DNA of 64,000 nt, taken from NCBI GenBank assembly GCA_905160935.1, contig CAJHZI010000206.1, forward strand, positions 179,501-243,500. Reading direction: 5' to 3'. Positions 749 to 62,100 of this stretch are shown here, piece after piece (position 1 is the first letter of the stretch; each line of letters begins with the position of its first letter). A program made the position numbers and the translations under genes. Under the pieces are notes generated by a model that saw only the letters and a list, made by a program, of their open reading frames with translations, was not told the DNA's origin and did no database searches. This stretch comes from Enchytraeus crypticus. Its lineage: Eukaryota > Annelida > Clitellata > Enchytraeida > Enchytraeidae.

Positions 749-1354
749 CTGGAAGATGATAATGAAGAGATCTTTCTGAGAGCTCTGTAGATCATCCAGT
801 TTGTCTTCCTCCACATCAATGGCATCAATGTTAGGTACCTCCTCCCCATCCAAGTCATACACATCTCCATCTCTCTTCTACAACAACAACAACATTCAAT
901 GTTAGGTACGTCCTCTACATCCAAGTCATACACATCATCATCTCCCTTCTACAACAACAACAACAACATTCAATGTTAGGTACGTCCTCTACATTCAAGT
1001 CATACACATCATCATCTCCCTTCTACAACAACAACAACAACATTCAATGTTAGGTACGTCCTCTACATTCACGTCATACACATCTCCATCTCTCTTTTAC
1101 AACAACAACAACAACATTAAAAGTTGAATTATCAACATTGTTGCTAATCCTGGTGACGCTATCACGGTGTTTCACTGTGGAGTGTTAGTCTCGCGGAGTA
1201 TGAATGCAGCCAGTAGTTAGCGCTATGTATCAAGAACTGTCAACAGACAGCCTACAGCTGATCTGAACACCACAACAGACAACCTATAGCTGATCTAAGG
1301 ACCACAACAGACAACCTATAGCTGATCTGAGGACCACAACAGACATCCTATAGC

Positions 1355-1398
<44 letters not shown>

Positions 1399-2269: not shown

Positions 2270-5200
2270 GCCTAAAGCTCGGAAAAAGGTATGGCTTCTG
2301 AAGTGGTTTCTCGTTGCATCCTCAGTTCTCGATTAGTCGCTCTGACGACACGTGCAGTTATTGGTTGGTCTATTCTAGGGAAATAACGGAGAGTCGCGGA
2401 TCAATTATATGATTCACCTTTCTGTCGTACTCTCTCAGCTTCTTCTTCATGACGTCGATATCTTTGCTCATTTTCTGCACCTGAGCGTTCATCTTCTTAA
2501 TGGTAGAGTGGAGTATTTCCCACACGTACCAGCTATCACAATCAATCAATCAATCAATCAATCTGTTCATCTTCTTAAAGGTAGAGTGGAGTATCTCCCA
2601 CACATACCAGCTATCACAATCAATCAAATCAATCACTCAATCTATCTGTTCATTTTCTTAATGGTAGAGTGGAGTATCTCACACACGTACCAGCTATTAC
2701 AATCAATCAATCAATTTATCAATCGATCTATCAATCGGTTCATCTTCTTAATGGTAGAGTGGAGTATCTCTCACATGGACCAGCTAACAAAATCAATCAA
2801 TCAATAAATCAATCAATCTTCTTAATGGTTAATACTGATGTTATTATTTTACTAAAAACTGCTAGTCTAGATTGCCTTATAACATCATCATCATGAGACT
2901 AAAATCAGAATAAATATATAAAAATAAAATATGAACTCAGAATCAGAATAATTGTTAGAAACAAATCAGTTACGAAGGAGCAGGTCATACATTATATATT
3001 TTTATAATAGAATAATAATCTTAATCATAATATCTCAATTTGTAATACATTTTGTAAGACTCCAATTTAGACCTATACAAAATGGAGGACGAATGAGGTG
3101 TAAATAAGATAAAATAAGCTCAGTTAGTAATGCATGTGCTACCTGCAAACGTTCCATAAATTTAATTACAATTATAATTAATTTTAATAATAACATCATT
3201 TGTTGTTAAGTTTCCTAATTTATAAATAATTTTACTGTAATGAATTTAACTTAACTTAGATAAATATCACAACGCATGTTGCAACGTTAACAAAGCAAAT
3301 AATATATATAATTATAGTCTTTATTCACTAAAAAAGTGGCAGTCCTACAAGCAAGGAAAATAAAAACCACCATAAAAATACAAGCTGAATTAGGACAACA
3401 AAGTAAATATAAAAGAATAAGGTTTACCCCGTGAATTAACTATACGGTCATTTTGCTACTTAAACTAGCAACAGCATAGCGGTAAAATACTTTCAAAATA
3501 TTTCCAAAATTTATATCTTATCTTAGCATATCAAAATATTTCCAAAATTTATATCTTATCTTAGCATATCAAAATATTTCCTCAATTTTTATCTTATCTT
3601 AGCATATCAAAATATTTCCAAAATTTATATATAATCTTAGCATATCCTATAATACAACGCAGACTACGTAATCTAGTCGAGCCGCTGATAGAAGTCGCAA
3701 GTACCAGGTGAGCTGAGATTTCATGAGATCAGAGAAGATCCAGCTAGCTACAGCTGAACACTGGACCACCTGAATCTTGAGCAACTTGTCTACCAACACG
3801 ACTATCATCTGCAACAAACAACAGCAGTCATACAATTACACACAGCATCGGTAATATACATACCAGGCTAACGTACAGAATTACACTGTATGTAATCCAT
3901 TATAAATATACATAAACAACCATCATCATCAACATCATCATCCTTCTTTGAATCATAGTTTAATTAGGGTCAGGATTAGAACATTTTGGAGCATTTTCTC
4001 GAGCCTAGACACACATCAAACGAATGCCCTTTCTGACATTGGTTTGGACCTTAATGATTTTCCACCTTTTACGACACGTGCAGTCCACTGTTGGTCCTTA
4101 CTTCAGCAACCTGGACACAATACGGGTACTATATACAAGGGCATTCAAAAATGTAAAAAACCTGCTAAAAGTATTAAAGATAAGTAAATAAGTAAAGAAT
4201 ATGTATACAGTAAAAGTCCCACCTGTTGATGACTACTCCACAGTCTATGCACAGAGTATGAATAAAGAGACCCACCTGTTGATGACTACTCCACAGTCTA
4301 TGCACAGAGTATGAATAAAGAGACCCACCTGTTGATGACTACTCCACAGTCTATGCACAGAGTATGAATAAAGAGACCCACCTGTTGATGACTACTCCAC
4401 AGTCTATGCACAGAGTATGAATAAAGAGACCCACCTGTTGATGACTACTCCACAGTCTATGCACAGAGTATGAATAAAGAGACCCACCTGTTGATGACTA
4501 CTCCACAGTCTATGCACAGAGTATGAATAAAGAGATCCACCTGTTGATGACTACTCCACAGTCTATGCACAGAGTATGAATAAAGAGACCCACCTGTTGA
4601 TGACTACTCCACAGTCTATGCACAGAGTATGAATAAAGAGACCCACCTGTTGATGACTGCTCCACAGTCTATGCACAGAGTTGAGCAGACAGATCTGTTT
4701 CTGTTCAGCCAGTTTCTCGTCATCAGACTCTCCCAGAGACTTCAACACTGGATGAAATCTATGCACACACGTAAATGTCTGCAGCCACTGGCGACGTCGA
4801 TAAGATATTAGACAGCGAATCAGTAGGTGCGGGGTTCAAATCCTGGGCTCGTCCGTCACTGACATCGCTTTCGAGAGATGAAACTAACGTTAACATTGGC
4901 TTTACTTTTTACGTACATACATGTCATACAACGGGGCAGAGCCAGTGGCTTTTAGACAACTTGTTCGACAGCGAATCAGTAGGTGCAGGGTTCACTCCCA
5001 GAGTGCTCTCTGTTACTGATATGATATCGAGCAGGAAACTGACGTCGCACTAGGCTTTTGATTAACTAAAAACATTTACTCTTAAGTCTAATGTAACGAC
5101 CGAAGTATTCATTCATTTTTAATTTCAACTAAAATCTTAATTCATTATCTTGTAGTCATCATTATCATCATCCTCCCTTGAATCCCAGTTTAACTAGGGT

Positions 5201-8200
5201 CGGGATACAAACAGACTGTCTCAAATCATCTCTGTCCTACACCATACCACCTGCCAATCCCCTATTGTAGACTTTTCCATTTGTTTAAATTCAATTCATT
5301 AAATTGTAGTAAATCTGCTAAACCGTTCCTTGGACACGGCATTGAGCTTGAGTGAGAGAGAGAAAGAAACGGGGAGAGAGAAAGGGAGAGAAAGAAAGAG
5401 AGAAACAGAGAGAGAAAGAAACAGGGAGAGAAGAAGAAAGAATGAGAGAAATAGAAAGAGAGATGGAAATAGAGAGAGAGAGACAAAACTGTACAACAGC
5501 AACAACTGTACAGACTGATCGCAGAGTTACTCACTTAGAGATGGCAGCGAAGGAGTGGCTGAACGACTTGGCGCCTAGAAGCAGAAGTGTCTCCACAAAC
5601 ACGCTGATCCTCAGCGGGTTGAACGCTGAAACACGCAATAACCTGCCTTCTATGAATACTGCAACCGAAAAGTAAAAATCCTTTTTTTAAATTACATAAC
5701 ATAAAAATTACACTGCTACTATCATCCATGATAACTTGGAGCACTATTGAAATAGATCCAAGAAGGATAATAGCAAGAATGTCCCAAAGGGTGTAAAAAA
5801 CGTTGTCTTCGTTCTTTATTTCTTCTTCCCTTCCAAGCTTCCTTCTATTATCTCTAAAATAATCATACACCTTCAGAAATTTCTACTACTTTTTATCTAG
5901 CTAAAGATAATATAAATACTTTCTTAATAATAATAATAATTTAATACTTATAATATAATAAATAAGAAATGCACTCTTAATGAAATACTTTCTTAGAACA
6001 TTTACGATCATGTATTATCAGCCCTTCCTTCTATAGGTTATCCTATCAAAGAGACTAGCTAAACAACTTGCAGATACTCAATCAATCAATCAATCAATCA
6101 ATAAGAGTTTAACGTCAGGTTCCTCGCCATAACGCAATGTCAGGGACGTCTCTTGCAGACTCTACACAAACAGGCGCCAAAGCATCACACGATGACGACT
6201 GAGTACACAGAGACCACAAGAGAAAGCAAGATCAAAACATCAATAGATGTTTATCAAATAGAGATCAATACGTCAATAGATGAGAAAAGAAAAGTGTGCG
6301 TACACTCGGTGCTCCCGTCCTCCATGTCAGTGGGTAGATCATCCAGGTCTTTCTCCGCCTCGCCTGGAGTGCATTTAGACTTTATACTCAGCATCAGCTT
6401 GTGCGCTACTGTCTTAACAGGGTCATCTCCGTCTAATCAATCAATCAATCAATCAATCTGACAATCAATCAGTTAATCGATCAGTTAATCAATCAGTCGA
6501 TCAGTAAATCAATCACTCAATCAATAGTAAAAGCTAAAGCTGGTAAAGCTAAGGTTAACGTCAGTTTCCTCACTCGAAAGCGATGTCAGTGACAGGCTAG
6601 CCCAGGATTTGAACCCCGCACATTCTGATCCGCAGTCGAGTATCTTACAGACTTTGCCACTGGATCCAGCCAGAGTAGTCTATGAATGAATTCAATAATC
6701 CGATCAAAGTAAAAATAAAAAGTAAAGTGATTAGTGAATCAATTAAGAAACTAAAACCTGAAGGGAGATATAGTGAGGGATAAATAGAGTGTAAGTGGCA
6801 ACAGAGAAAACAGCGACAAAGTCATAAAAATACTAGAAAAACGTTAATGTTAATGAAAAACTTGGTTTAATGTTCGTTTCGAGTCTCAAAAAATGTAGAT
6901 GATGCAGTGCGCACAGAATTTGAACTCTGTACCCACTAATGACGTCCCTGACATTGCCATATGGCGAGGAACAGGACGTTAAACACTTATTGATTGATTA
7001 ATTCAGTCGGTTTATCAGGAATGCAGGTACCACTTAGCGACGTAAGTACTACAGGCTAAAGTGATGAGATCCATGATCAAGAACTTACCCATAATGCCAC
7101 TGTTTCAGCCTAATAGAGAGAAAGCCAAGAAAAGACTACCGACTAACCGCTCGTGTCGTGATCATATCTGTAGTGAGGTTCAGGTCTAGCGGGCAGCAGA
7201 GCCTCAAAGCTCTCAGGCATTGTCTCCACCACTCTCTGGTGATAGGATAGTCTACAGATATAGATAGTTGATAGGATAGTCTACATATATAGATAGTTGA
7301 TAGGATAGTCTACAGATATAGATAGTTGATAGGATAGTCTACAGATATAGATAGTTGATAGGATAGTCTACAGATATAGATAGTTGATAGGATAGTCTAC
7401 AGATATAGATAGTTGATAGGATAGTCTACAGATATAGATAGTTGATAGGATAGTCTACAGATATAGATAGTGGATAAATATCTAATCGGATAGTCTACAG
7501 ATATAATGTGTGATAATATTAAATATCTGATAAAATTATCTGCAGATACACATGGTTGATAAAATTAGTGTCTGATAGGATAATCTACAGATAACTCATA
7601 ACATATAACAGAGCATAATCCTGTGTTGTGTCCAGGTTGTTGAAGAACAGACTAACCGTGGACTGCAAGTGTCTTAAAAAGCAGCAATGCACTAAGATCC
7701 AAACAAACGTACAAAAGGGTAGTCGGTTGGTGAGCGGCTGTGCTCCTGATTTTTCTAAAAACTTTTCTAAAACAAATAGAGAAGTTTAATTCTCAACTCC
7801 AGCTAAACTGGGATTCAAGGAAAGAAGAAGATGATGATGATAGGAAAACAAAAAGATATACAGATATAAATTACTGATAAAGTTAATTGACTGATTGAAT
7901 AATTTACAAATACTAACTGTTGATAAAATTAAATTACTGCCTAATATATCAAATCCTGATCACTGAGACGCCAAACAATTACCAAACATTTGAAGTAGAA
8001 TTACTTAAGAGATTGAGATAACACAGAAATTTAATACATCTTTCTTACAAAATAATGATCACATATATACGATAATGGTACCTAGGTAGGTTGTAGTGTA
8101 CTTAACGTCAAGGTTCGGAAGCACAACATTTCTTTTCAAGACGAGTAGGAATAATCAAACATTAATATTTAATATTCAGGGAATATCAACAGGTCAGGTT

Positions 8201-16000: not shown

Positions 16001-16342
16001 AATTTGCCAGATTTAAATTAAATAGATATCTACCGGTACTAAAGAGTAAGTTACTGAAGTTAAGTATGTGCTACATAGAGACTAACGACTGAGCAGTCTT
16101 GATGGGTAAAGATGTATTAAGAAATAGGAAGAAGAGATGGATAGGACACATTCTAAGGAAGAAGGTCTATTAAAAGGGGTCATAGAAGGTAGAATGGAAG
16201 GAAAAGAAGTAGAGGCAGGCCGAGATTAGGTATGTTAAATGATTTGACCTGCTCATATGTGGAAATGAAGAGGAAAGAGAAGAGAAGACAGAGAAGAGTG
16301 GAGGCGTTATATACCATGGTCCTGCCAGTAAGCAGTGCACTT

Positions 16343-16379: not shown

Positions 16380-19334
16380 CAACACAGAGACTAACGACAG
16401 ACCAGTCTTTACGCTCCAGATGGTAGGTGTGGATAGATCGGTGCAGATATTCCTCCACTAGATAGCGCTGCAGTGAGTATCTGTCCGGCAGCGGCAAGTA
16501 CTCCTGCAGAAATAGAATACTAGAAATAATAATAATAATAACAATAATAATAATAATAATGATAATAATAATAATAATAATAAGAAAGAGGGATTCTATA
16601 TTAAATAGTAAGAAAGATGGATTCTATATCAGTTGCAGAATCCGTGACTAACTGGAAGTAAAATTTAAAATACAAGCAAAGAGATAAAATACATAACCGT
16701 GCAACAAACCGGTGAAATTAAAGTATACATTAAATATCAACAAAACTAAGTGTGAACTAAGTTAAATGTTAAATGGAATAAATGTAATTAAAATAATAAA
16801 TTGAATAAATTTAAATTGAATAATGTTAAAGAGAACTAAATGTGCAACAACCGGTGGAATGTCCTCCTGGACAAACAGCGTAAAGACCATGGTAGGCAGC
16901 GGATAGCTCGACTCGTCTGTGTGAGGTGGGACAGTGAGAGAGGGAATGGTGTGCTGCAGTGCATCACATATAGTTCCCTCAAACGCCACGTAGGGTCTAA
17001 TGATCTCAACCTCCTCCCACTGCAGTGCTCTCATTCCCTTAATCATTTCCCACAGGTGGTCCAAGTACTGTTAATACAACAGCATACAATATATAAAAAA
17101 GCTAAATGCTAAGGTTAACAACAGTTTCCTCACTCGAAAGCGATGTCAGTGACGAGCGAGAGGAGGATTTGAACCCCGCACATACTGATCCGCGGTCGAG
17201 TGTCTGTCTTATCAACTTCGCCACTGGCTCCAGCCAGTTGCGAAGCTAGTTCATATGTTACACATATTATTAACACACAGAGTACAATACACTACAATAC
17301 AATAAAAACGGTACTTATTATACAGCATAAGTAACTCTCTCCATGTAAAAGTGGCCACTTACGATCCAATTTATCATAAAAATTATTTGTTCAGATAAAT
17401 TGGATGCTAGAGTGGACAATTAATTTGACTGTTAATTCGCTCCATTAAATATATCAGAACAAAATGTCTATTCAGTTAAATTTGATCAAGAGGAGACAAT
17501 CTGATACAGGCTGTTCAAATAATGCAAAGTTCTTCAAGCATTAGCGTTGTAAGTAAATACTTTAGCCTTTGGTACGTTATAGGATTGAATGGATTCACTG
17601 ATTGCAGTGGCTGAGTAAAGCAATGGGAATGTAGCTCAGTAGCCATGACTTGGCGTTCAAATTGCATTTTATGCAATTTGAATAGGCAATTTGAAAAGAC
17701 TAAGTTAATGCACAAAAAATCTCCAGCTAATGCATAAAAACTCTCCAGCTAATGCATAGAAACGCTCCAGTTAATTCACAGAAACTCTCCAACTTATACG
17801 CAAAAGCTCACCAGCTTATACATAAAAGCTCACCAGCTTATATCTAAAAGCTCACCAGCTTATACATAAAACTCAACAGCTTATACATAAAAGCTCACTA
17901 GCTTATACATCAAAACTCACCAGCTTATACATAAAAACTCACCAGCTTATACATAAAACTCACCAGCTTATACAAAAAGCTCACTAGCTTATACCCAAAA
18001 ACTCACCAGCTTATACATAAAACTCACCAGCTTATACATAAAAGCTCAATAGCTTATACATAAAAGCTCACCAGCTAATGCATAAAAACTCTCCAGCTAA
18101 TGCACATAACACACGTGAACAAATTTTCTAAGTTAATTTGCTAAACAGTTTCTAGGAATTGTTGCTAATGGCTCCAGTGAAAGTTCAATAGAAGTGCACT
18201 CACCTCCACTTGTGAAGGTCTCTCATTGGCTCCCCAAACTCTCAACGCTGAAACGTGAATCTTCTGTCTGCGTCTACAGCATTTATATCATATAATCATC
18301 ATCATCATCATCATCTTCCTTTGAATTCAAGTTTACCTAGGGTAGGGATTCGAATAGACTATCTCAAGGTATTTATATCATATAACTGTTGCAACATTGT
18401 AAATACAAATAATTATAATATAGAACACAGTAAAATTCAAAATATACATAAAAATATAAAATACAATACAAATACTCTAATATGGAAAATATTGATAATA
18501 ACAACATCAGACGACATAAATATAAAGTTAGGCATTGATGAGTTAGGCAGCGCGTCAAGATTTCATAGTGAATCTCAGCAGCTGAATTAAGTGCTACCCC
18601 CAAACTAGTAGAATACAATGTAGGAGGCACTACAGACTATGAAAATCAGCATCAAACTATAATCGACAAAGGCAATTACTGAATAATATCTGGCTTACGT
18701 TTACGTCAGATTGCAACTAGTGACATAAACATACTGTCGCTATTATCTATAAGCATTTCCTTTCTCTTAATTTTCCCTTCATCGCATTGCACTTGCAATA
18801 CAACGAAAATGAGGAGAAAAAGAAGAGAAAAAGAAGAGAAAGAGAATGCAGAGTCGACCACAGGAATGACTCTGTACCTGATAAAGCTAATGTTAACGTC
18901 TGTTTGTTTCCTCACTCAAAAGCAATGTCAGTGACGGCGAGCCCAAGATTTGAACCCTGCACATACTGATCCGCGGTTGAGTATCTTACTGACATCGCCA
19001 CTGACAACCAATGGCCCACAGTACCTCATCACTTAATGGTAGGGGCAGGAATGTACCTGATATAAGCCTCTACAAGCAATGGTCTACAGTGACTCAACAC
19101 TTAATGGGAAGGGCAGGAATGTACCTGATATAAGCCTCTACAAGCAATGATCTACAGTGACTCATCACTTAATGGTAAGACAGGAATGTACCTGACATAA
19201 GCCTCTACAATGTTACACAGAGACTCCATGTCGTGAGGTTTCTTCTGACTCACTTCCAGACCAACCCAGGGCAAACAAGAGAGCACAGCGTACATGTACC
19301 AATCAGCCCGTACCTGATCAATCAATCAATCAAT

Positions 19335-20473: not shown

Positions 20474-23047
20474 CATGATATGAACTACAGAACCTGAGGG
20501 ACGTCAGTCTCTGTGGTGACCTCTAAGAACGTTCTGTAGAGACTGATCAGTGAGGAGACTGTGACCACCCTGCAGTTGACGAGATCTGAGAGAAATCTCA
20601 GCTGTACATACAATACATTTATACTAAGTAATGAATTAGTAATTAAGTAAAAAATTAGTAATTAATTAAATTACTAATTAATTAATTATTTAAGTTGTCA
20701 TCATCTTCCCTTAGAGAAATCTCAGCTGAACATACTATCAATTTATACCAAGTACAAAACCTGGTAGGGCTAATGTTAACGTCAGTTTCCTCACATGAAA
20801 GCGATGTCAGGGATGGGTGAGCCCAGGCTTTGAACCCTGCACATACTGATCTGCGGTCGAATAACTTACCGACATCGCCACTGGCTCCAACCAGGGAAGA
20901 ATAAATTGTCATTAAGTAATAAATTACTAATTAGTTAAATTATTCATTAAGTAATTAATTAGTAATTATTTAAGTCATCATCATTTTCCCTTAAATCCCA
21001 GTTTAACTAGAGTCGGGATATGAATAGACCTTCTCCACTCCTCCCTGTCCCACACCATATCATCAATTATAATATTCAGGCACCAAACACTCAAATAACG
21101 TTAATATCTGATCATTTCAACAAAATGTATTAAATCTCCAAGTGAAATAGCATTCAGAATTAACAGTTTATTCTGTAATTCTGTAAACTTAACAGCGTAA
21201 TCTTAGTGATTCAGCTATCTGTGTCGATTCAAAAAGAAGCCTTGTGCTTCTGAACCTTGACGTTAAGCAGGCCATTAACACCAATTTGCTGGTCAAATAA
21301 AGATCATCTTATTCATCAACCAACCAGGAAAGTGAAATCAATGAGTTTGTACACAGAAAATCAAAAAGTCTTCCAACAAAGTCAGCAGATGCAAAAGTTA
21401 AACGTCATTCAAAGAAAAGCTAATGTTAACGTCAGTTTCCTTGAAAGTGATGTCATTTAAGCCATCAACTGACCAGGGATGTGAAGTCAAACAGTCACTA
21501 CATGTTTCTAAAGCCAAAAAGAAACTTTAAACGACAGAAGCAGTTGAACTTCAACATATTGATACGCTAGTGCACTCACCACAGTCCTAGCTATCTCGTA
21601 TTCCTCCGCCTTCAGGGCTTCCTTCAATCTTCTGATCAGAACCTCTACAAACTATAAACATAGTAACTGCAATTGTACAATACAGCCAAATATAATGTAA
21701 TATTGTATTTGAGGAAGGCAATGGGAAACCACCTCAGAAGCCATACTTTTCTCAAGCTATAGGCTACATAAGGTATGGATAAGGCATAGACTTTGTGAAG
21801 GGATTAATTTGTTGATCTATGAAGTGCTCTTATGAGCGAGAAAGCAGAGTAAGAATATGTACCTTGAACCTGCCACTTGGCAGTGCACTGAAGAAGACTG
21901 TAATATTAAGAGACGTATTAAAAATCAAATTGAAGTCAATAATATTTAGTGATTGATTGAGCAATAACTTCAACGAGCAATTCAGTTTAATTAAGTTTTG
22001 CTTGTGATTTTCATAAAACGACACTAATGACAGCAAAATTCTTGAACGGGGAATTGTCAAGCTGAGAGCAGATTAGCAATCGTCTTTCCTGCAATTAAAT
22101 AAACAAATCAACAAATTATAATAAAGTCAATTCACCAATCACCTAAAACAGATGCTGCACAATTTTCACTGGTTTTAGGGATTAAGTAAAAAATCCAGAG
22201 CCCCAAAACAGTTTATGATCTTTCGTTAAAAAATAGAGTAAAGCTGTATTCTGGAAAGATACACCAGATAAGGCTTAAACGAACCAGCAATATTTAATTG
22301 CAGTAAGGAAGTGACACACATATCTTTAAAGCAAATTACCACGAGTTAAGGCAATAGTCAAGTACTCAATTACAAAGTTTTCTTCAACAGAAACAAACTT
22401 GTGCTCAACTGAGCAGTTTAATGTTTTGTTTGTCACAGGTTTAGATATATAAAGTATGTCAATTACTATATACTCTGCTTTGTTTTATTTTTATCTTATC
22501 TTTCTTATTTTTCTCTATTATTGGTTAGTTGTCAGTGCATTTGGTGTTTTTGAGTTTAACTATAATAATAAACATACTCTAACACTGATCAAGATAAACC
22601 AACACAGATTTCAAAATTGTTAAAAAAGGGAATTGTCATATAAGAAAATTATTTGAAAACTCAACATACCTCTCCACCAGCATTGTAGTTCTTGGCATTC
22701 AGCAGACCTACTAGAGTTGTGTAGACTGTCACGTTCTCAGGCATGGTGACCACACTACAAAACATACGAAACCTTAATGTAACATTCCATACTTCACAAA
22801 AAGACTTAATTTATAAAATTTGTGCTGACTGCGCTTGGACCATTTCCTTGATCGATGGAGTGCTCTGGGTTGAGGTTAATATTAAAGTACTAATAATAAT
22901 AATAATAAAGGTTTAACGTCAGTTTCGTCATACAAGGATGATGTCAGGGACGTAATACTATTATTACGTAATACTCTTCTCATACTATTATATATAGTAT
23001 GAGAAGAAATAAGTGTATTGGACCCAAAACTTAGCCTTAATATATGG

Positions 23048-40994: not shown

Positions 40995-43900
40995 ATGGCT
41001 GTAATAGGGAAGAAGTTGGATCATCTGAACACGCCGTGCTTTATTGTCAATGCAGACATCGTTCGTAACAATGCTGCTACAATGCGTCAACGATGCCAAG
41101 AATTAGGTGTTCAATTGCGACCTCACATGAAAACACATAAATGCTTGTAAGTTCTAAAATTCTATGTTTGACAGTTGTACAAGTTGTATCTTGAGAGTTC
41201 TACAAGTTCTCTGCTTGAGATTTTTACAAGTTCTATGCTTGTAAGTTCTACAAGTTCTTTGCTTGAGTCTCAAGCATAGAACTTGATAGGATAATAAAAG
41301 GGGGTATGATTAGCTATTAAAAGAATGTAATAAGAGGAAGAATGCAAGGGGAAATAGTTAGAGAAAGACTGAGATGGGATGTTGGATGATCTGATAACTA
41401 ATTATTTACAGAGATGAAAGGAAGGCAGAGGGTAGAATTGGTTGGAAGAGCTGTATGCCATGGATCTGCCATTAGGCAGTGCATTAGAAGAAGATTAGTT
41501 GAATATACTCATTTAATAAACATTTAATAATAATATCATTTTTAATATACTCTTTAATATACTCTTAAGTAATAATATAGGGCTACTTATTTAATAATTT
41601 AATACATTTAGCATACACTCTTGAGTTTCATGCAAGTGTTTCATTGTGTACATCATTTTACCAGTAAGATATTTGACTGCAGATCTGTATATGCGGGGTT
41701 CAGATCCTGGGCTTACCTGTCACTGACATCGCTTTCCAGTGAGGAAACTGACGTTAACATTAGTTTTACCAGCTTTTTGCATTTTCTTTTCTAATGATTT
41801 AGATAAAATGGTACATTGCGTCTGTTCAGAGAAGTGGGAATCATCGCCACGGATGGCAAGAAGCGCTGCATCACAGTATCGACGCTGGCAGAAGCTGAAT
41901 TCTTTGCTGAGGGTGGATTTGATGATATTGTGTTCGCTTCTCTTTTCTCTGCTGGCAAGATTCCAAGGTATAATGTCCATGTCTTATAGTAAAATTTAAT
42001 GTTAAATTATTTTTGTTAAAGCTATATTGTGGCTCTATAGATATAGTCAAATTTTTCTCTTATCGGAGAGGGTGATAAACGTATCTGCTATTTCTTGCGA
42101 AGCAGTTTCTCATAAAGGTAATAAACTTTTCCTTTTATATTTAGACTTCTTACTTTTTGTTGCTACCATTTGCTTTTCTGAGAGAAGGTTGAAGTTTTTA
42201 GGTCAGTTACTGAGAATGTCTGAGGATAGATACACAAAGACTGCAGTTAACTGAAAGCCAACTCAAGGAAGAAGGAAACGAGGAAGACCTAGAAGGTCTT
42301 CCTCGTTGTCTTCGCTAAATACGATCAATAAAGATTTTAAATTGTGAACATTTCATGGGAAGACGCTGTGAAGATTGCTGATGATAGAAACGAATGGAGG
42401 AATGTTGCCGCCCTATGTTCTGCACAAAACTCAAGGGACTGATGATGACCATTTGCTTACTGAGCAATAGTATTACTACTAATACTAATGTTTATTTATT
42501 TATTTTATTATTTTTTTATTACTAAGTATTAATATAATATTATTGTCCTTACAATGCCTCCTTTTGTTAGAAACCACATTTTTTGTTAGTACCACTCATT
42601 GTGGGACTGCCATTTGCTGGCTGGAGCCAGTGGCGATGTCAGTAAGATATTCGACCGCAGATCAGTATGTGCTGGTTCAAATCCTGGGCTCGCCCGTCAC
42701 TGACAAAGCTTTCGAGAGATGAGACTGATGTCAACATTGGCTCTACCAGCTTTTACTATCAGGATTGAATTTTTAAACTTCTTGTTTTTTGCAGTTGCAA
42801 TGGTAGCACTGGACTGGCTGAGTTTATAAAAGTTTAGTATTAAAAAATTTCATTAGGATGACTTAATCATCATCATCATCCTCCTTCTCCCTGCATAAAG
42901 ATGATTTCATTTGTTTAATTTGTATTGTGATATTTTATTGTGACTTCCTGCAAATAAAGTGATTTCATAGTGTCTTTATTTGAGGGTCTAAGGTTTCTTT
43001 CTACTAAGTTACATTGTTATCTCTCTTTTTTTGCTTGTTTTAAAACTGGATTTGAGTTTAGCTCGAAATTGACTTGATGCGTTGATTGAACGTGTTCACA
43101 GAATGAGGGAGTTGGCTAATAAGCTTTCTCTGTTCCATGTGATAATAGACAATCCTGTTCACTTTGAGCTTCTGGAACGTTCTCCACTTGATGGTGGAAA
43201 GCGTTGGTCTGTTCTGATAAAGATTGATGTGGAAAGTCGCAGAGGTGTGTTGTTCACGCATAGATTAACCTAAGTGTCGTATAGTTTAAAAGTACTTGTT
43301 GAAATATATTTTTATTACTTTTATATATATTTATAACTCAAATATACATATATTTTATAAATATATTTTATAATTTTATTAAATATTTTTTAAAATATAT
43401 TTTATAAGCTTTATATATTTTAATTTTTATATATTTTTATCTATGTGTCAGGATATTAAATTGGCATGTATATATGTGAGTTGTTTTTCAATTTGCAAAT
43501 TGTATTTCATGAGTGTAACTATACGGGAAAAAAAACAAAATAAAAAATAAATGTAATAATAATAATGGCAACAATTCGAGTGCTACAGTCATCAATGACA
43601 ACATCGAGCACTATTGAGACAAAATCAAGCCGGCAAGCAAGAAAAAAAGAATCATATCTTTTAAACGTATCATATCTCTCTTGCGTTGCTCGTGATATGT
43701 GAAACTTTATCTTTATAAATATATTTTATAATTTTATTAAATATTTTTTAAAATATATTTTATAAGCTTTATATATTTTAATTTTTATATATTTTTATCT
43801 ATGTGTCAGGATATTAAATTGGCATGTATATATGTGAGTTGTTTTTCAATTTGCAAATTGTATTTCATGAGTGTAACTATACGGGAAAAAAAACAAAATA

Positions 43901-48149: not shown

Positions 48150-50748
48150 TCTCTCTCAAGGAACAGATTTCTCTCTTTTTATATTGTGATTTATCTGTTA
48201 TTGTTATTGCCCGGTGGATCATACTGCTTGTTTGAGGATGAGCCTTATCTCAAGTAACTGATCTCTCTCTCTCTCTCTCTCTGTCCCTCTCTCTCTCTCA
48301 AGTAACTGATCTCTCTCTTTCTCTCTCTCTGTCCCTCTCTCTCTCTCTCTCTCTCTCTTTCAAGTAACTGCTCTCTCTCTCTGTCCCTCTCTCTCTCTCT
48401 TTCAAGTAACTTATCTCTCTCTCTGTCCCTCTCTCTCTCTCTCTCTCAAGTAATAGATCTCTCTTTTTTACTGTGATTTATCTGTTACTGTTATATATCT
48501 AATATAAAAAAGCCAGTTTTGTCTGTCTATCTCTCTGAAGAAACCCTGAGCGTCATCGTGCCATATTTAGAATTCCTTAACAGTTATGCTAATTACAACA
48601 GCTCTATCGTTTGTTCGCTATCAACTTAAATTCATATGACCAGTCTATATTGAAATTTTATTTAAATTTAAATTTTGTATTTAGCGTTACGACGCTAAAT
48701 ACAGCTCTCATTTGTCGACTGTAACTTTCTGGTGATTACTCCTCCTTCATATTTGGCTTTCTTTCGCAACATCAAATTTTTCAGTCCTAAATATTAACGT
48801 TAAATAGAGTGTTGTTGTTATTTATTAATAGTGTAAGGCTCATTCTTTTAGGCCTATATTGAATACTACTTCTTCATATATAAGAAAATTTTAGAAATTG
48901 ATTTATTGAGAGTCGTATGTTAGATTAGTAGAATGCCGCCTGAGAGGTTAGAGTTCAAATCCAGGTTCACTTAAATTGACCTTTTTATTTTAGATAAGCG
49001 CATTTTTGCACACGGGTACATACTAGTTTAATTTAATATACAGTTATACACTTACTACTGTATCTTATTTTCCATGGTAAATTTTTTAAAGTTTTGTTTT
49101 GTGTAGTTTTGTTTTTCTTTCGTTGCTCTTCGTTGTTCTCGTAGGAGTTAATGAGTAATTGATTTTACTGCGTAGGATTACCAAACCCCAAATATACAAA
49201 ATTTACTAGTTTTCTAAATTTACTTGCGTTATGTCCTGGTTGCTGAATATTAGACCAACCGAGGACTGCACATTTCATAAAAGGCGGCAAAGCACGAAGA
49301 TCAAAATCAGCTTCAGAAAGGGTATTCGGTTGGTGACTGCCTAGGCTGCAGAAATTGCAAAATTTTCTATTGCCGATCCAAGTTAAACACTTGTTCAAGA
49401 GAAGATGATGATGATAATGATGATGATGAACTGAGCGATTTTTTATTGATTTTTATTGTATCGAGCGATTTAAAACACTTATTCAAGAAGAGAAGAACAA
49501 GAAGATGATGATGATAAACTGAGCGATTGTTTTGTTGTAGATTAGTTAAAATGACTCAGGAAGTTGGATTTGTTCAACCTCGTAAGGGAAAGCTTAACTA
49601 TGAGAAATATCCCATCGGCATGATGCTAATGATAATTCCCTACCATGTAAGATTCTATTTTATATAATTCTATTCTTCAAAGCCATGTCACCAGCTCTGC
49701 CTAAGTGTAGTTAATTGAATCTATTTACATTTTGTATAGTTTATGGTTAAAATAAGACATTATTGCTAATAATATTTGCTTGATGACATTTTAAAAATGT
49801 TATGATTGAAAATTGCAACAAATATCTAGAAAATCAAGTGCAATTAGATTGTGACCAATTTGTGAGATATTTTCGGAAAACACCTTTTTCAAATGGAAAA
49901 ACAATAGCTTAATTATTTAATTTTTTACAGTTATCGAGTTGCATTGTTACTCGGCAAAATAGAATATAAATCTATTGCTATTGTGCATTTTATTGGTATG
50001 AATTATTTTCTAGCTTCTGTTAATAAATTAAACTGTCACACTTTTTCTCTTCTTAAGAAACTGCAATGGCTTCTAATCACTCAATGCATAAAATTCAAGA
50101 TAGCTTCCTTAGTTCTCAAAGGATTAATTTACGGTAAACCATCATAACTCTCTGATCTGTTATTTCTCTCTTAGTGTACTACCTACTGGCAGGTCCATGG
50201 TATATGACGCCTCCACTCTTTTCTGTCCTCTGCTTTCCTCTTCTTTTCCACATATGAGTGGGTCTTTAAATCAACTAACATACCTAATCTCGGCCTGCCC
50301 CTGCCTCTTTTTCCTTCCATTCTACCTTCTATGACCTCTATTAATAGACCTTCTCCCCTTAGAATGTGTCCTATCCAACACTTCTTCCTATTTCTTAATA
50401 CATTCATCAACTGTCTATCTGTACCAACTCTCTCAGAACTTCCTCATTTGTAACCTTTTGAGTCCAGCTAATCCTCTCCATTCTTGTCCAAATCCACATT
50501 TTCAACGTCTCCAGTTTCCTAATATCTTACTTAAGGTTCATGTTTCACATCCATACAATAGCATGGTCCCAACCAAAGTTTTCACTATCGTATCTTTGTA
50601 TGTATATGTATATCGTTTAAATGTAAATCGTTTAACCTGTATCGTGACTTTGTTTCAGTCCTGCGCCACGTCATGCATGCACAGAGAATACTTTGTGCAC
50701 GACGGCACTAACATTGTGGACGTGTGGAGACCCTGCAGCGGCTGGTGA
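40995..50748 (+). CDS. DSD1: D-serine dehydratase-like PLP enzyme, complete, 8 exons
   Basis: Exons 40995-41146, 41830-41967, 43102-43244, 44699-44882, 46978-47099, 47909-48101, 49541-49646 and 50659-50748; 1128 nt, 375 aa plus TGA, all phases closing. The chicken enzyme has 376 aa. Fold-type III PLP protein with an alanine-racemase-like N-terminal barrel. RPHMKTHK at 42-49 carries the Schiff-base lysine (K46; K45 in chicken). Then follow [50 protein letters not shown] and the zinc-site pair H346-x-C348 in HSCAT, ending [10 protein letters not shown]. The zinc pair favours D-serine or D-threo-hydroxyaspartate dehydratase over a bacterial D-threonine aldolase role, but substrate cannot be read from sequence. 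Acts on free D-serine, giving pyruvate and ammonia, probably cytosolic. Confidence 0.93.
41140..41280 (+). repeat. Imperfect repeats around the dehydratase exon 1 donor
   Basis: ATGCTTGTAAGTTCTA at the real donor (41146/41147) recurs at 41235-41250, within a run of TACAAGTTCT and TGCTTGAG units. Confidence 0.65.
41285..41490 (+). mobile_element. LINE-G 3' end, degraded
   Basis: AATGCAAGGGGAAATAGTTA, GGATGTTGGATGATCTG, then CCATGGATCTGCCATTAGGC as in other LINE-G tails. Confidence 0.6.
41664..41778 (+). mobile_element. SINE-A, tRNA-derived
   Basis: Forward copy, 5' end degraded, in dehydratase intron 1 about 50 bp before exon 2. Confidence 0.82.
42170..42450 (+). mobile_element. LINE-H C-terminal fragment
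   Basis: Coding remnants [19 protein letters not shown], then basic [12 protein letters not shown] sequence, then [18 protein letters not shown] and ALCSAQN, the usual C-terminus of RTE/I-type non-LTR elements, with a (GAT)n end. Stops present. Shares its end with 11928-12030. Confidence 0.72.
42620..42764 (+). mobile_element. SINE-A, tRNA-derived
   Basis: Forward copy, GGAGCCAGTGGCGATGTCAG to GGCTCTACCAGCTTTTAC. Confidence 0.87.
43356..44445 (+). repeat. Triplicated 358-368-bp unit containing a LINE tail
   Basis: ATACGGG anchors at 43521, 43879 and 44247. Copies 1 and 2 look nearly identical; copy 3 has a 10-bp insertion and scattered changes. Each unit holds AT-rich DNA and a LINE-N 3' end (GTGCTACAGTCATCAATGAC, AATCAAGCCGGCAAGCAAG). 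In dehydratase intron 3. Confidence 0.92.
44505..44622 (+). mobile_element. SINE-A, tRNA-derived
   Basis: Forward copy ending about 75 bp before dehydratase exon 4. Confidence 0.83.
45010..45152 (-). mobile_element. SINE-A, tRNA-derived
   Basis: Reverse copy in dehydratase intron 4. Confidence 0.84.
45340..45410 (+). mobile_element. SINE-D 3' end
   Basis: GACGTCCCTGACATCATCCT, GAGGAAACGGACGTTAAACG and a short TTA tail. Confidence 0.72.
45594..45962 (-). CDS. Isolated exon of a lipid phosphate phosphatase (PAP2/LPP family)
   Basis: Open exon of 123 codons, phase 0 at both ends, with a good acceptor (ATCTTTCAG) and donor (GTTAGT). It encodes a membrane segment ([17 protein letters not shown]), then KFSIGRLRP, the C1 catalytic motif KX6RP of LPP enzymes, and a following loop with RPHFLSVC. 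LPPs dephosphorylate phosphatidate, LPA and ceramide phosphate at the membrane. The exons that should carry the first transmembrane helix and motifs C2 (SGH) and C3 (SRxxxxxHxxxD) were not found by eye on either side. It lies antisense in dehydratase intron 4. It may be a retained exon of a scattered nested gene, a transduced fragment or a young pseudogene. Confidence 0.8.
46139..46284 (+). mobile_element. SINE-A, tRNA-derived
   Basis: Forward copy with a small internal duplication of AGCGATGTCAG near the 3' end. Confidence 0.86.
46475..46700 (-). mobile_element. SINE-F
   Basis: Reverse copy: CTACCAAGTGGCAGGTCCAA, GTAGCCTATAGCTTGGGAAA, CTTCTGAGGTGGTTTTC. Confidence 0.78.
47350..47545 (-). 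mobile_element. SINE-D with (TAA)n tail
   Basis: (AT)n and (TAA)n, then GGTTTACCATCCGTTTCCTC, GGATGATGTCAGGGACGTCC and a head part to about 47545. Longest copy of the family. A LINE C-terminal scrap ([12 protein letters not shown]) follows at 47630-47740. Confidence 0.75.
47745..47905. repeat. (TATTG)n pentanucleotide tract
   Basis: TATTG and related GATTTG units run up to the acceptor of dehydratase exon 6 at 47909. Confidence 0.9.
48102..48475 (+). repeat. Copies of the dehydratase exon 6 donor edge in a (TC)n tract
   Basis: The real donor follows 48101 (ATCTCAA before GTAACT). One long copy (48210-48258) repeats about 45 bases of exon end plus donor. CAAGTAACT-type donors recur near 48300, 48361, 48403 and, with changes, 48448, each embedded in CT repeats. 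Confidence 0.87.
49196..49440 (+). mobile_element. SINE-E, GAT-tailed
   Basis: GTTATGTCCTGGTTGCTGAA to AAGATGATGATGATAATGAT in dehydratase intron 6. A second GAT run at 49504 precedes exon 7. Confidence 0.8.
50160..50530 (-). mobile_element. LINE-G C-terminal coding fragment
   Basis: Best copy of this family: 75-codon frame with [36 protein letters not shown] and [10 protein letters not shown] at the end, just inside 50183-50410. Typical non-LTR RT C-terminus. In dehydratase intron 7. Confidence 0.8.
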
Positions 50749-55304: not shown

Positions 55305-55560
55305 AAAACAACGACACACTGGGTCAGGAAGCACAGATGCTTGTTTAAGGTCCATTTCCTCCTTCCTCTTCATGGTTTTTAGTGATAGTTGCCTTTCGAT
55401 GGAGCATCAATTGCAGCCGGAACCGATTTAAGAATAACCTTCCAACACACCGGAGATTTTTCATTCCAAGCTGTCAACCATCGGTCTTCCATGGTGGTCA
55501 CCCAAGCATGTACTAACCGAGGCCGATTTAGCAAACTTAATGCATGCACCTGGTCTCTTA
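55305..55560 (-). mobile_element. 5S-derived SINE
   Basis: Same body as the copy at 27743 (GACACACTGGGTCAGGAAGC, AATTGCAGCCGG) and the 5S-like part TGGTGGTCACCCA and GTACTAACCGAGGCCGAT. Confidence 0.8.
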
Positions 55561-55670
55561 AGAAGTTAATACATAACTGAAATTGTTAAGATTTTGTGAA
55601 TTTTTTTACCATTATGACCACAAACCTAATAAATAAAAATCCGCAAAATACCGTGTTGTTATATGTTAGT

Positions 55671-55895
55671 ATAGACGGCGAGATTTAGCGCGCTTGGTTT
55701 AGTTGCGCTTGAATAATCGTAACATCCCATCCAAAATCCCAGGATGGTGGAAGGTTATTCTTAAATCGGCTCCGGCTGCAATTAATGTGCCATCAAAGGC
55801 AAAGATTACTAATAACCATGGACATTATAGAGGAAATGGTTCTTAAACAACATCTGTGCTTCCTGGTCCACTGTGACGTTATGTTTTTTATGTAG
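55671..55895 (+). mobile_element. 5S-derived SINE with the 5S core deleted
   Basis: Starts AGACGGCGAGATTTAGCGCG, keeps the family 3' body (GGCTGCAATTAATGTGCC, CATCTGTGCTTCCTGG), but lacks the AAGTTAAGC to GGGTGACC segment. Opposite orientation to the copy at 55305. 55896-56110 is AT-rich with nothing else seen. Confidence 0.75.
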
Positions 55896-56110
55896 TGTTT
55901 GTCATGTCATTCATAGATATATAATAATCCAATACTTCGTTGATGTCATCATTGAAACAGTTTTAGAGCAATTTCATTTTATACTACAGGATAAAAACGG
56001 AAATAAAAATAGTTTTAAAATTTGTTTACATGTCACTTTATTTACTAATTAAATTTTTGGTGTTTATGACAGAAAACGGATATTCTAGGTAATTATTTAA
56101 CTATTGTGAA

Positions 56111-59100
56111 ATGACTGAGATTGCGCTACCGTCTAAGATGCCTATGAAATCATTCGTAACCGATATATTGGCTGTTGCAGGTTCGTACAGCGATTAGACT
56201 TTTCTTTTTATTTATTATCCATATTGTCGTCCAGTTTCTTGTCATACTAAATCCCTGACAGCGAATTTTATTTCAGATATATTATGTAGATTTATCTAAA
56301 AAGCTAGTAAAAAAGGTTAACGTTAGTTTCCTCATTCGAAAGCGACGTCAGTGACGGGCGAGCCCAACATTTGAACCCCATACATACTGATCCGCGGTCG
56401 AGTGTCTTACCGACTCCGCCACTGGCTCCAGCCACTCCGACATTGGCCCCAGCCAGTGGCAGGATGGCTGGACTAATATTTATTTCCATAGACGAATAGT
56501 TAGATAATAATGAATATTTATTCATTATATATATTATATTATTAATACTACTCACGTGATTAGCATAATTTAATAAACTAATATAAATTCTTAAAAATAA
56601 AATATATAAATGCCTCTAAGGCAATTTAGGCTAGCCGTGAATTAAATTTTAATTTTCTTTATATTATCCCCATAGTTGTGTTCATGAAAATGATCATATT
56701 TCATTCATGAATCTTTGATTTTACAAGTTGGACTGTGTAGCTGTTGTGGAAGAATGTTTGCTTTCATTTTTCTGACTCAAAAATTTGTATGGCTGGAGAT
56801 AGGGCCTCTTGCTCGTAGGGACCAAAAAGTGGGCTGGCAACTGTCCATTTGCCTAGGGGCCTCGGCCAGCAATGGTAAAAGACCATTTTTTGAAGGAAAA
56901 AAATGATAGTAACTTTGTCATCTAATCCTCTGATTTCCATTGTTTTAGGTAAGTTGGAAAAGGAAGATCTGACGGCAAAATTGGCTCAGTTAACGCAGAA
57001 GGTTGAGGAGGTGAAAATAGAAGTACACGATGCTTTGCATAAAAAGTATGCTGACTTTCAACCAACGTTTGAGGCAACTGTATCTCTTCGAAATAGAATA
57101 TCTGTAATTGATAAGGACATTGATTCTCTACATACCACTATTGAAAAGCAGGTTGTTTATTATTATTATTATTTATGTTTATTACTTAAACAGTATTTAT
57201 TAAGTATTTTTGCTAAGTGTCTATTGAATTCTAATATGAACCTGTTTTATTTAGCTGAGAAATTTTATTAAATTCAAGGCTATCATTTTAAATTTGATTA
57301 ATTTTGTTCATTAAATGGTAGTGTATTCATGCCTAACATGTCAGTTGACTAGAGTATTGGCTTTGGAGTATTTGAACCTGTTCTCTAATTAATATTACTT
57401 ATATTACAATTACCCCGTGTTGTGCTCGGGTGTGGTTGAGCCACTGTAGAATAGGGCAAACGAAAACAATCTGCTGCGTGTACGTAAGAGGCGACTAAGG
57501 CAGGAGCTGAGGATGGCTAGAGGGACCCACCTCACCATGAAATATTTTCCCCCAGGATTAAATGGTAATTAATCCATCTAACTGAGGAAGGCAACAGGAA
57601 ACCACCTCAGGAGCCATACTTTTCCCAAGCTATAGGCTACATAAGGTATTGATATGGAATAGACTTTGTGAAGGGATTAACTTGTTGATCTAAGGAGTGC
57701 TCTTATGGAGCGAGAAAGCAGACTTTGAGTATGAATATGTACCTTGAACCTGCCACTTGGCAGTGCACTGAAGAAGAAAGATATTACAATTAGTATAACA
57801 TTATTAGGAAAATTGATTTCTACATATCGTAATTATTAAATCTTAGCTTATCTTGTATATTGAACTTCTAATTCTAGGGTTGAAGTATTGATCTGTGTAG
57901 ATGTGTTCTGTAAATCATCATCATCTTCTCTTAAACTCCATTTTAACTAGGGTCGGGAAGACATGTTCTCTAAAGAATATTATTAAATATTTTTATTAAT
58001 CATAATAATGTGATTCATAGGCAACGATTCTTATCTGATATAAACCTAAGGTTAACGTCAGTTTCCTCACTCGAAAGCGATATCAGTGACGGGAGAGCCC
58101 AGGAGTTGAACCCCGCACATACTGATCCGCGGTCGAGTGTCTTACCGACTTCGCCACTGGCTCCAGCCAGTGAAATATATTGATCATCTAATCAATTGAT
58201 TGATTGATTTAACTAGACGAAGGGTCAGGTGCGAGTATCTGCTGTTGAATACGAGACTCTGTTCTCTAACTACGAGGAGTCTAAGGCGACGGTGCTGATA
58301 CTGACCGGACTGATAGAGATCCACGAGGGATTGCAGGCTCTCTGTACCGCTATAGACGATCACAAGCTAGGCACGGCTGCTGAGCTCATCTCTAGACTGG
58401 ATGAAGTGTTCTTAAGGCTTCATCGAGCAACCGGTAACGGTACGTGAGATTTGTACACATAGTCAATTAAACTGTGGATAAAAACGACCCGTGAAGTAAT
58501 AAAAGCTAAAAAAAGCGTATGTTAACGTCGGTTTCCTCATTCGAAAGCGATGTCAGTGACGGTAGAGTCCAGGATTTCAACCCCGCACACACTGATCCAC
58601 AGTCAAATATCTTACCGACATCGCCACTGGCTCCAGCCAATGGCAATGTTGGTAAGTTATTGACCAGAATGTACTAGAGAGTTTATTACAAATCCAAAAT
58701 CCACCGGTAACGGTATGCAAGATTTGCATGCAAAAAAGCAACAAATTTACTATTTTTAAAACAATGCTACTTCATGGCCTCCTATAATCGAATTACAATA
58801 TGTTAATCTAGTAATGCACACTATCATCATCATTATCATCATCATCAGCACCATCATCATCATCATTATCATCATCTTCATCATCATCATCATCATCTCC
58901 ATCATCATCACAATTAAACTGAGGATAAATACGACCCAGCAAGTTAACCACAATTTACTAGAGTGTCTACTACAAATCCCAAATCCAGAAAATAGAAATT
59001 AAAAGAAAGCTAAAAGAGAAAAGTTTAGAAATAAAATAGGACAGGAAGCTAATGGAAGGTATACTTATCCATTTTTCACAACTATCTTGATTATCACCTT

Positions 59101-62100
59101 TTGCTCTGATATTTTGTCACAATAATAAATCTATCCTGCTGATTGGCTCACGTGTGTAGTTGTAAGACCATAGCCTTTATCTTTTGAAAGGTTAGAATTA
59201 TCCTCAAGTCACCTCCTACTGATCTGCAATTGGGCATTTTGCCGATATGTCACTCGGCTCAATACATAGCATTTCACGTACTGTCTGTAGGTATTCACGT
59301 ATTGTCTGTAGGTATTCACGTATTGTCTGTAGGTATTCACATACTGTCTGTAGGTATTCACGTATTGTCTGTAGGTATTCACGTATTGCCTGTAGGTATT
59401 CACATACTATCTGTGGGTATTCGCGTATTGTCTGTAGGTATTCACGTATTGTCTGTAGGTATTCACGTATTGTCTGTAGGTATTCACGTATTGCCTGTAG
59501 GTATTCGCGTATTGTCTGTAGGTATTCACGTATTGTCTGTAGGTATTTACGTATTGTCTATAGGTATTCACGTATTGTCTGTAGGTATTCATGTATTGTC
59601 TGTAGGTATTCACGTATTGTCAGTAGGTATTCAGGTATTGTCTGTAGTTATTCACATATTGCCTGTAGGTATTCACATACTGCCTCCCCTGCCTCGTTTA
59701 TTTTCAATCATATGTTTGCTTGATTGCTGGCTGTCAACTAGGTACAATATACAGGGTGAGTAAAAGAAAGTAATAACACTGGCAAAAAGTTAGAATATCT
59801 CAGGCTATTGTTAATATTTTCAAATCAAACTTTTACAAATTACTAAAGGAATAATTGTTGATGTGGTGGCCAATTTTCATCCATTTTAATACATAGATTG
59901 GCCAGTTCTGAAAGTTTCAACAGAGCATCCCCCCACATTTTTTGAATGTACTATAAATAAAACATTTATTTTATTTTATTTGTTGGCCCTGAAAAGGGTC
60001 GTTGTGGTGGTTCAGAAAGAACAAGTTGTATCTGCTAGCATTACTGACTGTTCGATATCCTTTCCTCCGGCTGCTACACAGGACTGCAGTAGCTTTTGGA
60101 ACGCTAGGACAGCCTTGTTGATTCCAGCTTGGGGCACTCTCTCCCAGATTGATTGTAGCACTTCATGAAGTTCTGTATTGTTTTTAGGCTTCGGCTGGTG
60201 TTTCTGATAGAGATGCAGCATGGTTTCCTAAACATGGTAATCCAGAGGATTTTGATCGGAAGAGTTTGGAGGCCATTCACTCTTCTTGATGAAATCCGGG
60301 TTTCTCTCGCTGATCCACTCCTGTGCATGACGAGAAGCATGAGCAGGAGAATAATCCTGCTGAAAGATGAAACCATTTGGTAGAAGAGCATTGCAATAAT
60401 CAAACAGCTTGGGAAGTAAAGTATTGACGTAATACTGAGCGTTCAACTTTTCCTTCTTGCCAATGAAATGCAATTTGCCCTTATCCTAGTAGCAAACCCT
60501 ATTTTTAGGTAAAAAATGAGGGGTTGCTCTGCTGAATCTTGTATAACTGGCCAATCTGTAGATTAAAATGGATGAAAATTGGCAACCCCATCGAAAATTA
60601 TTCCTTTAGTAATTTGTAAAAGTTTGATTTGAAAATATTAACAATAACCTGAGATATTCAAACTTTTTGCAGGTGTTATCACTTTTTTTTACTCACCCTG
60701 TATATGCCTCCTCTTTGGTGACCTTGCGCCTGTATGCTTTCGTTTACTTCGATATCAATTTTGTTTTCTAAGTTTTAGAATTAAAATTGTGTCCTAGGTA
60801 TTCACGTACTGCCTCACCTGCGTGACTCATTCAACAGCTATCGTGCTAGGCTACATACTCATTGTGAGGATCGATGGAAAGATTTTATGCTGTGGACGAA
60901 CAGTCCCTCTTCGCAGGATGATATCGACACTGGCAGGAGACACGACACAACTAGCGATACGTCCAGCGACTCACAGGTTCAGCTGACGTTTAACACCGAT
61001 AAGGAAAGCTTGCAGCGTTTTAGCGAGGCTCTACAGACGCTCGCGACACTCTCTATGCTGCAGAGATCAGTGAAATCATTCTCGACGCGTCTGATGAAGC
61101 ACATCGTAAAGCCGACGCTGTCAAACCCACACGTGTTGGTTGTGTCTAAACAGCAGCCGACCTCTGTTAGCATTACCGTGAAGAACACTAAGGGACCGGC
61201 AGAGGTTAAGAGTGTAAGTGAGTGTCTGGATGCTATCAAGCACTTTCAGCTTGTTCTAGATGCTCTCTCTGCTGCTCTGACCGGACTAAAGTTTACTCGT
61301 TACGTCAGCGCGACTGAATCAAACGAGGATTCTCAGATTAGTGAGGGAGGCGGAGTTAGAGAGGCAGAAGAGAAGACACTGCTTGAAGAGGTGGGGTTAG
61401 TCGTTAGAGAGGAATTGGTTGATCTGCTGGTTACCAGATGTCTCTCTCCTGCGATACCGAGCGACTACGGTCAACTCAGAGACTACTCTCCTGTTCTCAG
61501 TGCAGCCGTTACAGTGCAAGTAGGTTCATTTAAATGTGAATATCAATATCTATATGATATTGTTAAATTGTTAAATTTATCATCATCCTCCCTTGAATCC
61601 CAGTTTAACCATGGTCGAATAGACTGTCTCAAATCCTGTCTGTTATTTTAAATTGTTAAATTTATAATCTTAGTATATTTGAATATTTAATATGTAGTAT
61701 TTTGGATATGAATTTTTGCTATTAATATTTTGAATTTGTGTTTCGCCAGACAAGAAATTACCCCTAATATAGACTTATGGCCGTAGTTACTTGTGAGATA
61801 ATCCAGTGTTTAAACATCAAAAGTTGTGTAAACTACTGATTCGTCACAATTTGGTATTCTGCAAGCTTGAATCGATGTGCAAAGTAATGCAAAGCTCTGT
61901 TCGCCTGTTTTCGGGCGTTTAAACAGTTGACATGCTATATCACTGATTACGAAATAATATTCTGACTTTGTTTACGAAGTAAGCTGATTGGTCGATCAGC
62001 CTAAAGGACAGCGCTGTGATTGGCTGAGTGACATAATTTTGACGGTTGACCTTGTAGTTAATAACCACGCAACATTTCTTAGTGAATACCAAAAAATTCA

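Follow-up and report, generated by a model that had tools for sequence, protein, structure and literature searches.

We found that splice junctions in a 64-kb stretch of animal DNA (the window) have been copied repeatedly into the introns beside them. Four genes were modelled in the window: NCBP1, GPN2, a dehydratase and ZW10. Eight tandem arrays, with unit lengths of 21-90 bp, include an adjoining predicted junction (four donors and four acceptors), and four other junctions have one extra copy each. Together, 12 of the 71 predicted junctions (seven donors and five acceptors) are affected, and all of the copies, in arrays or single, are on the intron side of the junction. To judge from their anatomy, the arrays are apparently mirage-type minisatellites, a kind known from amphioxus that here seems to occur outside the cephalochordates. 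We consider it fairly probable that they are neutral duplications that correct splicing keeps hidden.

Tandem arrays include the neighboring splice junction

Tandem Repeats Finder (TRF), run with default settings, gave 114 rows for the window, and the arrays were then inspected copy by copy. Seven arrays that a previous reading of the letters (the sequence-only reading) had named as copies of a neighboring junction were all among these rows and could be tied to gene models. The same reading had listed a single echo at dehydratase exon 1. There is a copy at this junction, but it is not single; it sits in a 24-bp array. The eight arrays, with the extra AG or GT dinucleotides referred to as decoys, are:

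825..1125, minus strand: NCBP1 exon 21 acceptor array; 74 bp, 4.1 copies; 2 of 3 decoy AGs intact
2487..2818, minus strand: NCBP1 exon 20 acceptor array; 78-90 bp; true acceptor 2532; 3 of 3 decoy AGs intact
4211..4681, minus strand: NCBP1 exon 18 donor array; 53 bp, 8.9 copies; true donor 4646/4647; 8 of 8 decoy GTs intact
7240..7593, minus strand: NCBP1 exon 15 acceptor array; 29 bp; true acceptor 7251; 10 of 10 decoy AGs intact
19004..19210, minus strand: NCBP1 exon 7 donor array; 68 bp, 3.1 copies; true donor 19191/19192; 2 of 2 decoy GTs intact
41141..41267, plus strand: dehydratase exon 1 donor array (weak); 24 bp, diverged; true donor 41146/41147; GT in 1 of 3 located copies
48208..48464, plus strand: dehydratase exon 6 donor array; ~42 bp; true donor 48101/48102; 5 of 6 decoy GTs intact
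59273..59692, plus strand: ZW10 exon 4 acceptor array; 21 bp, 19 copies; true acceptor 60797/60798; 18 of 19 decoy AGs intact

The array at dehydratase exon 1 is the weakest of the eight, since the donor is kept in only one of its three located copies. At NCBP1 exon 15, diverged copies with a spacing of ~45 bp lie upstream of the 29-bp part. At dehydratase exon 6, the first copy contains ~45 bp of exon and the later copies are (TC)n plus CAAGTAA; one copy without the GT, at 48159, lies ahead of the array. The TRF match ranged from 98% (the 53-bp and 29-bp arrays) down to ~80%. That is, the arrays differ in age, and the duplication process therefore recurs. Insertion of a mobile repeat at the junctions was considered and ruled out because the exon part of every unit is gene-specific.

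The sequence-only reading described decoy sites next to the true site. The decoys are present, but adjacency did not hold for ZW10 exon 4, where the copies are 1.1-1.5 kb away from the exon. The last copy of this array matches the start of exon 4 at 25 of 27 bases and reaches deeper into the exon than the unit does. The present distance is accounted for by an element that sits between the array and the exon:

59748..60704, no strand assigned: element whose terminal inverted repeats match at 36 of 40 bases; boundaries approximate to within a few bases

We found no Pfam match for this element in three minus-strand frames. We take it to be Tc1/mariner-like.

Four junctions have one extra copy each:

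16073..16100, minus strand: NCBP1 exon 10 donor copy; 25 of 28 bases; true donor 16402/16403; without GT
20710..20754, minus strand: NCBP1 exon 6 acceptor copy; 39 of 45 bases; true acceptor 20601; AG intact
36323..36369, plus strand: GPN2 exon 3 donor-end copy; 41 of 47 bases; true donor 36287/36288; GC replaces GT
58703..58726, plus strand: ZW10 exon 3 donor copy; 21 of 24 bases; true donor 58439/58440; GT intact

The echoes at GPN2 exon 3 and ZW10 exon 3 had been noticed before and were recovered here, 72 bp and 273 bp downstream, respectively; those at NCBP1 exons 6 and 10 are additional. The GPN2 copy consists of the exon side plus CAG|G and stops at the junction.

Gene models

The junctions were defined on the following models:

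26136 to 749, minus strand: NCBP1; 21 exons modelled
749..877, minus strand: NCBP1 exon 21; true acceptor 877, donor end placed by eye; from profile alignment and the PDB match to CBP80
32588-37639, plus strand: GPN2; from reading frames and splice signals
40995-50745, plus strand: D-serine/D-threo-3-hydroxyaspartate-type dehydratase; 8 exons
56949 onward, plus strand: ZW10; from reading frames and splice signals

Gene identities are based on PDB matches to CBP80 (NCBP1) and human ZW10, on Pfam and on protein homologues. The protein homologue search returned none for ZW10, and Pfam and PDB were used in its place. Exon borders of NCBP1 and the dehydratase come from a purpose-written spliced profile alignment, with profiles built from 9 of 51 NCBP1 and 6 of 120 dehydratase homologues among the matches listed; ZW10 exons are numbered as in the sequence-only reading. 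After correction, all 71 junctions over the four genes have GT or AG. The predicted acceptor of ZW10 exon 6 is out of frame in the model (seven stops), and several predicted NCBP1 donors score poorly. The splice-site matrices hold generic values.

Decoy splice sites and the likeness of copies

Most copies retain the splice signal. AG or GT is kept in 49 of the 54 located array copies (51 of 58 once the four single copies are added), and many decoys score equal to or above the true site. Use of a decoy was predicted to give an early stop for 36 of the 37 decoys tested, a set in which ZW10 exon 4 is represented by 4 of its 18 intact copies. Wide use of decoys would therefore be costly.

A homogenised inside with an excluded edge is clear at NCBP1 exons 18 and 21. 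In the exon 18 array, neighboring copies are 98-100% alike, except for 93% between the two at the far edge, and they resemble the true copy at 87-94%. In the exon 21 array, inner copies are 93-99% alike, compared to 87-89% for the true copy.

The arrays resemble amphioxus mirages

The sequence-only reading knew of no named system like this, a statement that did not stand. The literature term "mirages" led, in the open-licence literature, to papers on amphioxus, and the arrays match what is described there. In the passages of these reports considered here, mirages are minisatellite-like duplications of exon-intron boundaries (PMC3087553, PMC3902484). Two amphioxus globin genes carry them and the Adh gene is cited (PMC3087553); a PGBD5 mirage was added later, with mention of troponin C (PMC3902484).

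The anatomical match is close, with the arrays here known from one genomic sequence alone. Donor and acceptor boundaries are both affected in either case, and AG or GT is kept in many copies, not all (PMC3087553). Units are 21-90 bp here and, in amphioxus, 10-72 bp in Adh and 150-160 bp in the globins (PMC3087553). Inner copies of the amphioxus globin mirages are homogenised and edge copies excluded, a pattern that is clear here at NCBP1 exons 18 and 21 but not at exons 7, 15 or 20. The same report, in the parts considered, describes copy number that varies between haplotypes and RT-PCR (reverse transcription PCR) that suggested regular splicing despite the mirages, and calls it unclear how mirages are generated (PMC3087553). 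The passages considered give no density figure for amphioxus to set beside the 12 of 71 junctions in this 64-kb window. The reported hosts are cephalochordates, whereas the host here, by its dehydratase gene, is apparently not one; this difference is a fact about those reports and not a property of the repeats.

Intron gain by tandem duplication has reportedly been treated by Rogers in 1989, Zhuo in 2007, and Gao and Lynch in 2009. A case from potato is described in the part of another paper considered here (PMC4974935). The common feature is tandemly duplicated sequence that bears splice signals. There, a new intron comes from the duplicated sequence, whereas what is copied here is a junction that already existed, and the copies lie in its own intron. 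Human segmental duplications have internal tandem repeats at exon-intron boundaries (PMC2812944). These are likewise minisatellites with cryptic splice sites. In contrast to the arrays here, they are in primate paralogs of recent origin, for which transcripts give evidence of altered splicing, and seeding from the junction itself is not described in the sections considered. Beyond this human case, our search of the open-licence literature returned no junction arrays of this kind in another animal, and the sections considered of a report on earthworm intron minisatellites (PMC12783039) describe no junction copies.

Placement of the host by two genes

Protein homologue searches with the dehydratase and NCBP1 turned up no near relative. 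The best match to the dehydratase was 58% identical, Owenia 49% and B. belcheri 47.7%; the best match to NCBP1 was 63% identical. Trees were made from 41 of 120 dehydratase and 34 of 51 NCBP1 homologues, chosen by hand from the matches listed. In the dehydratase tree, the window sequence grouped with Capitella, Paralvinella and four more rows (97/95), and the two Branchiostoma rows were beside the vertebrates. Two annelids, Owenia and Dimorphilus, were outside that group, in a poorly resolved part of the tree. In the NCBP1 tree, which has long branches and few non-arthropod names, the window joined one row and then a bryozoan. Judged by the dehydratase gene alone, the host would not be Branchiostoma; it is probably a lophotrochozoan and perhaps an annelid. 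The anatomy of the arrays, together with a dehydratase that is only 47.7% identical to that of Branchiostoma and groups with some annelids, points to a known kind of repeat that apparently also occurs outside the cephalochordates.

Chance similarity and junction preference

We used an ungapped screen for copies that extend 8 bases or more to either side of a junction and lie within 500 bp. The score was at least 13 at 10 of 71 junctions (exactly 13 at dehydratase exon 1). With Markov-resampled flanks, none of 426 trials reached a score of 9. Chance similarity is excluded as the source of the junction copies. The screen omits ZW10 exon 4 (copies more than 500 bp away) and GPN2 exon 3 (exon side only), which were added by a relaxed look, and the controls cover the unrelaxed rule.

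The sequence-only reading had suggested a duplication mechanism that acts at splice junctions. At the scale of the window, a plain coverage comparison of the kind it had proposed gave no enrichment: 14.1% (10/71) of junctions compared to 20.2% of 5619 intronic positions. With low-complexity filters, the intronic value was 17.5% of 5349 or 16.3% of 5126 positions, with 9 of 67 junctions in the latter. Exon interiors were locally duplicated at 2.4% (14/589) of positions. Plain coverage overstates the expectation because an array of n copies covers n times its seed, and a junction can be the seed once. When intron was weighted by copy number, 6.3% was duplicated (p = 0.013 against 10/71 junctions), or 5.4% with a milder filter (p = 0.0046). 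At stricter scores, 7-8 of 71 junctions compared to 3.5-4.5% of weighted intron (p = 0.013-0.014).

We also gave each TRF array one seed, placed at random in collapsed gene territory. Eight of 29 in-gene arrays span a junction, compared to 1.7-2.2 expected (p 0.0002-0.001). Among arrays with at least 2.5 copies, it was 8 of 17, compared to 1.2-1.5 expected, and none of 5000 simulations reached 8. Thus, when each array is counted a single time, the null models put the excess at junctions at 2- to 6-fold. The remaining 21 of 29 in-gene arrays span no junction, in agreement with the earlier statement that the pattern is frequent and not universal.

The counts used a low-complexity cut-off of 0.70, chosen when the arrays were already known; at 0.69, the array of dehydratase exon 6 barely passes, and the in-gene arrays at 5354, 10492 and 62787 (index at least 0.70) were dropped. 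Arrays with a period below 18 bp or fewer than 1.8 copies were also dropped, as were those that fall in none of the four gene stretches, among them 700-733, slightly beyond the modelled end of NCBP1 exon 21. The array at 7475-7593 was merged with that of NCBP1 exon 15, and unit lengths at 17714 and 41141 were fixed by hand at 22 and 24. A junction preference in array seeding is plausible and not established, because the window was chosen for the pattern, the cut-off barely admits one array, another array is weak, and the arrays are few.

A model for the arrays, and alternatives

A short stretch straddling an exon-intron boundary would be duplicated head to tail, by ordinary tandem duplication in a minisatellite-rich genome. 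Unequal exchange or slippage could later expand the array and homogenise its inner copies. One full junction would stay beside the exon, and the surplus copies would land in the intron. Because a full junction remains, a duplication at the boundary would escape selection, whereas one within an exon would usually be eliminated. The spliceosome would be expected to keep to the exon-side copy, with intact decoys mostly silent.

Several points weigh against these arrays being neutral, silently spliced mirages. The silence of the decoys, the duplication mechanism and the neutrality are each something that we infer. The early stops say little, because nearly any intron read-through yields them. At positions up to 10 bases from the junction, the splice core had about half the frequency of minority bases (11/294) seen outside it (68/946; Fisher p = 0.04, copies not independent). 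Perhaps the decoys are not simply drifting, but this is a weak hint at best because the copies are related. A homogenised inside plus a divergent edge was not found when copies were compared in the arrays at NCBP1 exons 7, 15 and 20: copies at exon 15 are nearly all identical, the true copy included, and those at exons 7 and 20 are equally distant from one another. Finally, the seed counts suggest more hits at junctions than a neutral, uniform process would give.

That last point bears on a different explanation, which we regard as possible and rather doubtful: that minisatellite birth in this lineage has its hot spots at splice junctions, through a step in base composition, simple-sequence tracts before the acceptor, or co-transcriptional structures. 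The seed counts and the weighted screen favor it, as do simple repeats beside the splice site in the units of NCBP1 exons 20 and 21 and dehydratase exon 6. On the other side are the plain coverage comparison, the choice of a single window for its pattern, the two arrays that are borderline or weak, and the five of eight units in which no simple repeat was seen by eye.

It is improbable that the decoys are used by selection, with redundant sites serving as a buffer against mutation or adjusting expression by unproductive splicing and decay. NCBP1 is a cap-binding protein and is linked to decay. Scores that match or beat the true site, the retention of AG or GT, the fewer changes in the core and the early stops would all fit such a role. 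However, the dehydratase and ZW10 show the same pattern, young arrays would be intact by age alone, and the p value rests on non-independent copies. The use of redundant sites by selection had been raised in the sequence-only reading, and beyond the marginal halving in the core we found no positive evidence for it. An assembly artefact, with reads joined repeatedly at junctions, is very improbable: one amphioxus mirage was aberrantly assembled in a genome draft, according to the part of that report considered (PMC3087553), but here, in most arrays, the copies are identical neither to each other nor to the true junction, an inserted element parts the ZW10 array from its exon, and twelve junctions in four genes are affected.

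Other repeats and features of the window

A repeat of ~120 bp, by its look a short interspersed element, occurs 23 times in the 64 kb on both strands (for example 58515-58660, 4776-4896 and 18890-19015). Its copies are 74-90% like the query copy, which is included in the 23, and one meets the NCBP1 exon 7 array at its end. A microsatellite of the TTGA/ATTG type is right before the AG at acceptors 2532, 6432, 10404, 19313 and 58216. Between the dehydratase and ZW10, an array of five 44-bp copies (51916-52135), each containing an acceptor-like TTTTCTAG, could be part of an unmodelled 5' exon of ZW10; it was left out of the counts as lying outside the modelled genes. Dehydratase intron 3 contains three copies of a 358-bp unit (97% match) that involves no junction. 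Other features are:

28019-29095, plus strand: reverse transcriptase of the long interspersed element (LINE) type, RVT_1 match
~31154-31360, minus strand: LINE-type reverse transcriptase fragment, just under the Pfam cut-off
43354-44439: the three 358-bp units in dehydratase intron 3
45561-45986, minus strand: open frame within dehydratase intron 4, no Pfam match; presumably resembles lipid phosphate phosphatase

A Pfam scan of the plus strand between 50700 and 57000 gave no match, and an Rfam scan gave nothing at gathering scores. A match to RNA polymerase in 48999-63998 (PDB search, one frame) was driven by repeats and was discarded.

Implications

Mirages have so far been noted gene by gene, in amphioxus, as far as the passages considered go (PMC3087553, PMC3902484). 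Dense mirages in an animal that is apparently unrelated to amphioxus would rule them out as a peculiarity of cephalochordates, and a genome with dense mirages would let their seeding be counted. Only tentatively would we go further and propose that in this protostome, probably annelid-like, junctions are preferred birth places of minisatellites, with about half of the multi-copy in-gene arrays (8/17) derived from junctions, several times the number expected from random seeding, and that mirages form generally in animals and supply intact spare splice sites for new introns and isoforms. In genomes of this kind, gene predictors face many splice sites with equal scores, and the old idea that introns are gained by duplicated splice signals would become directly testable.

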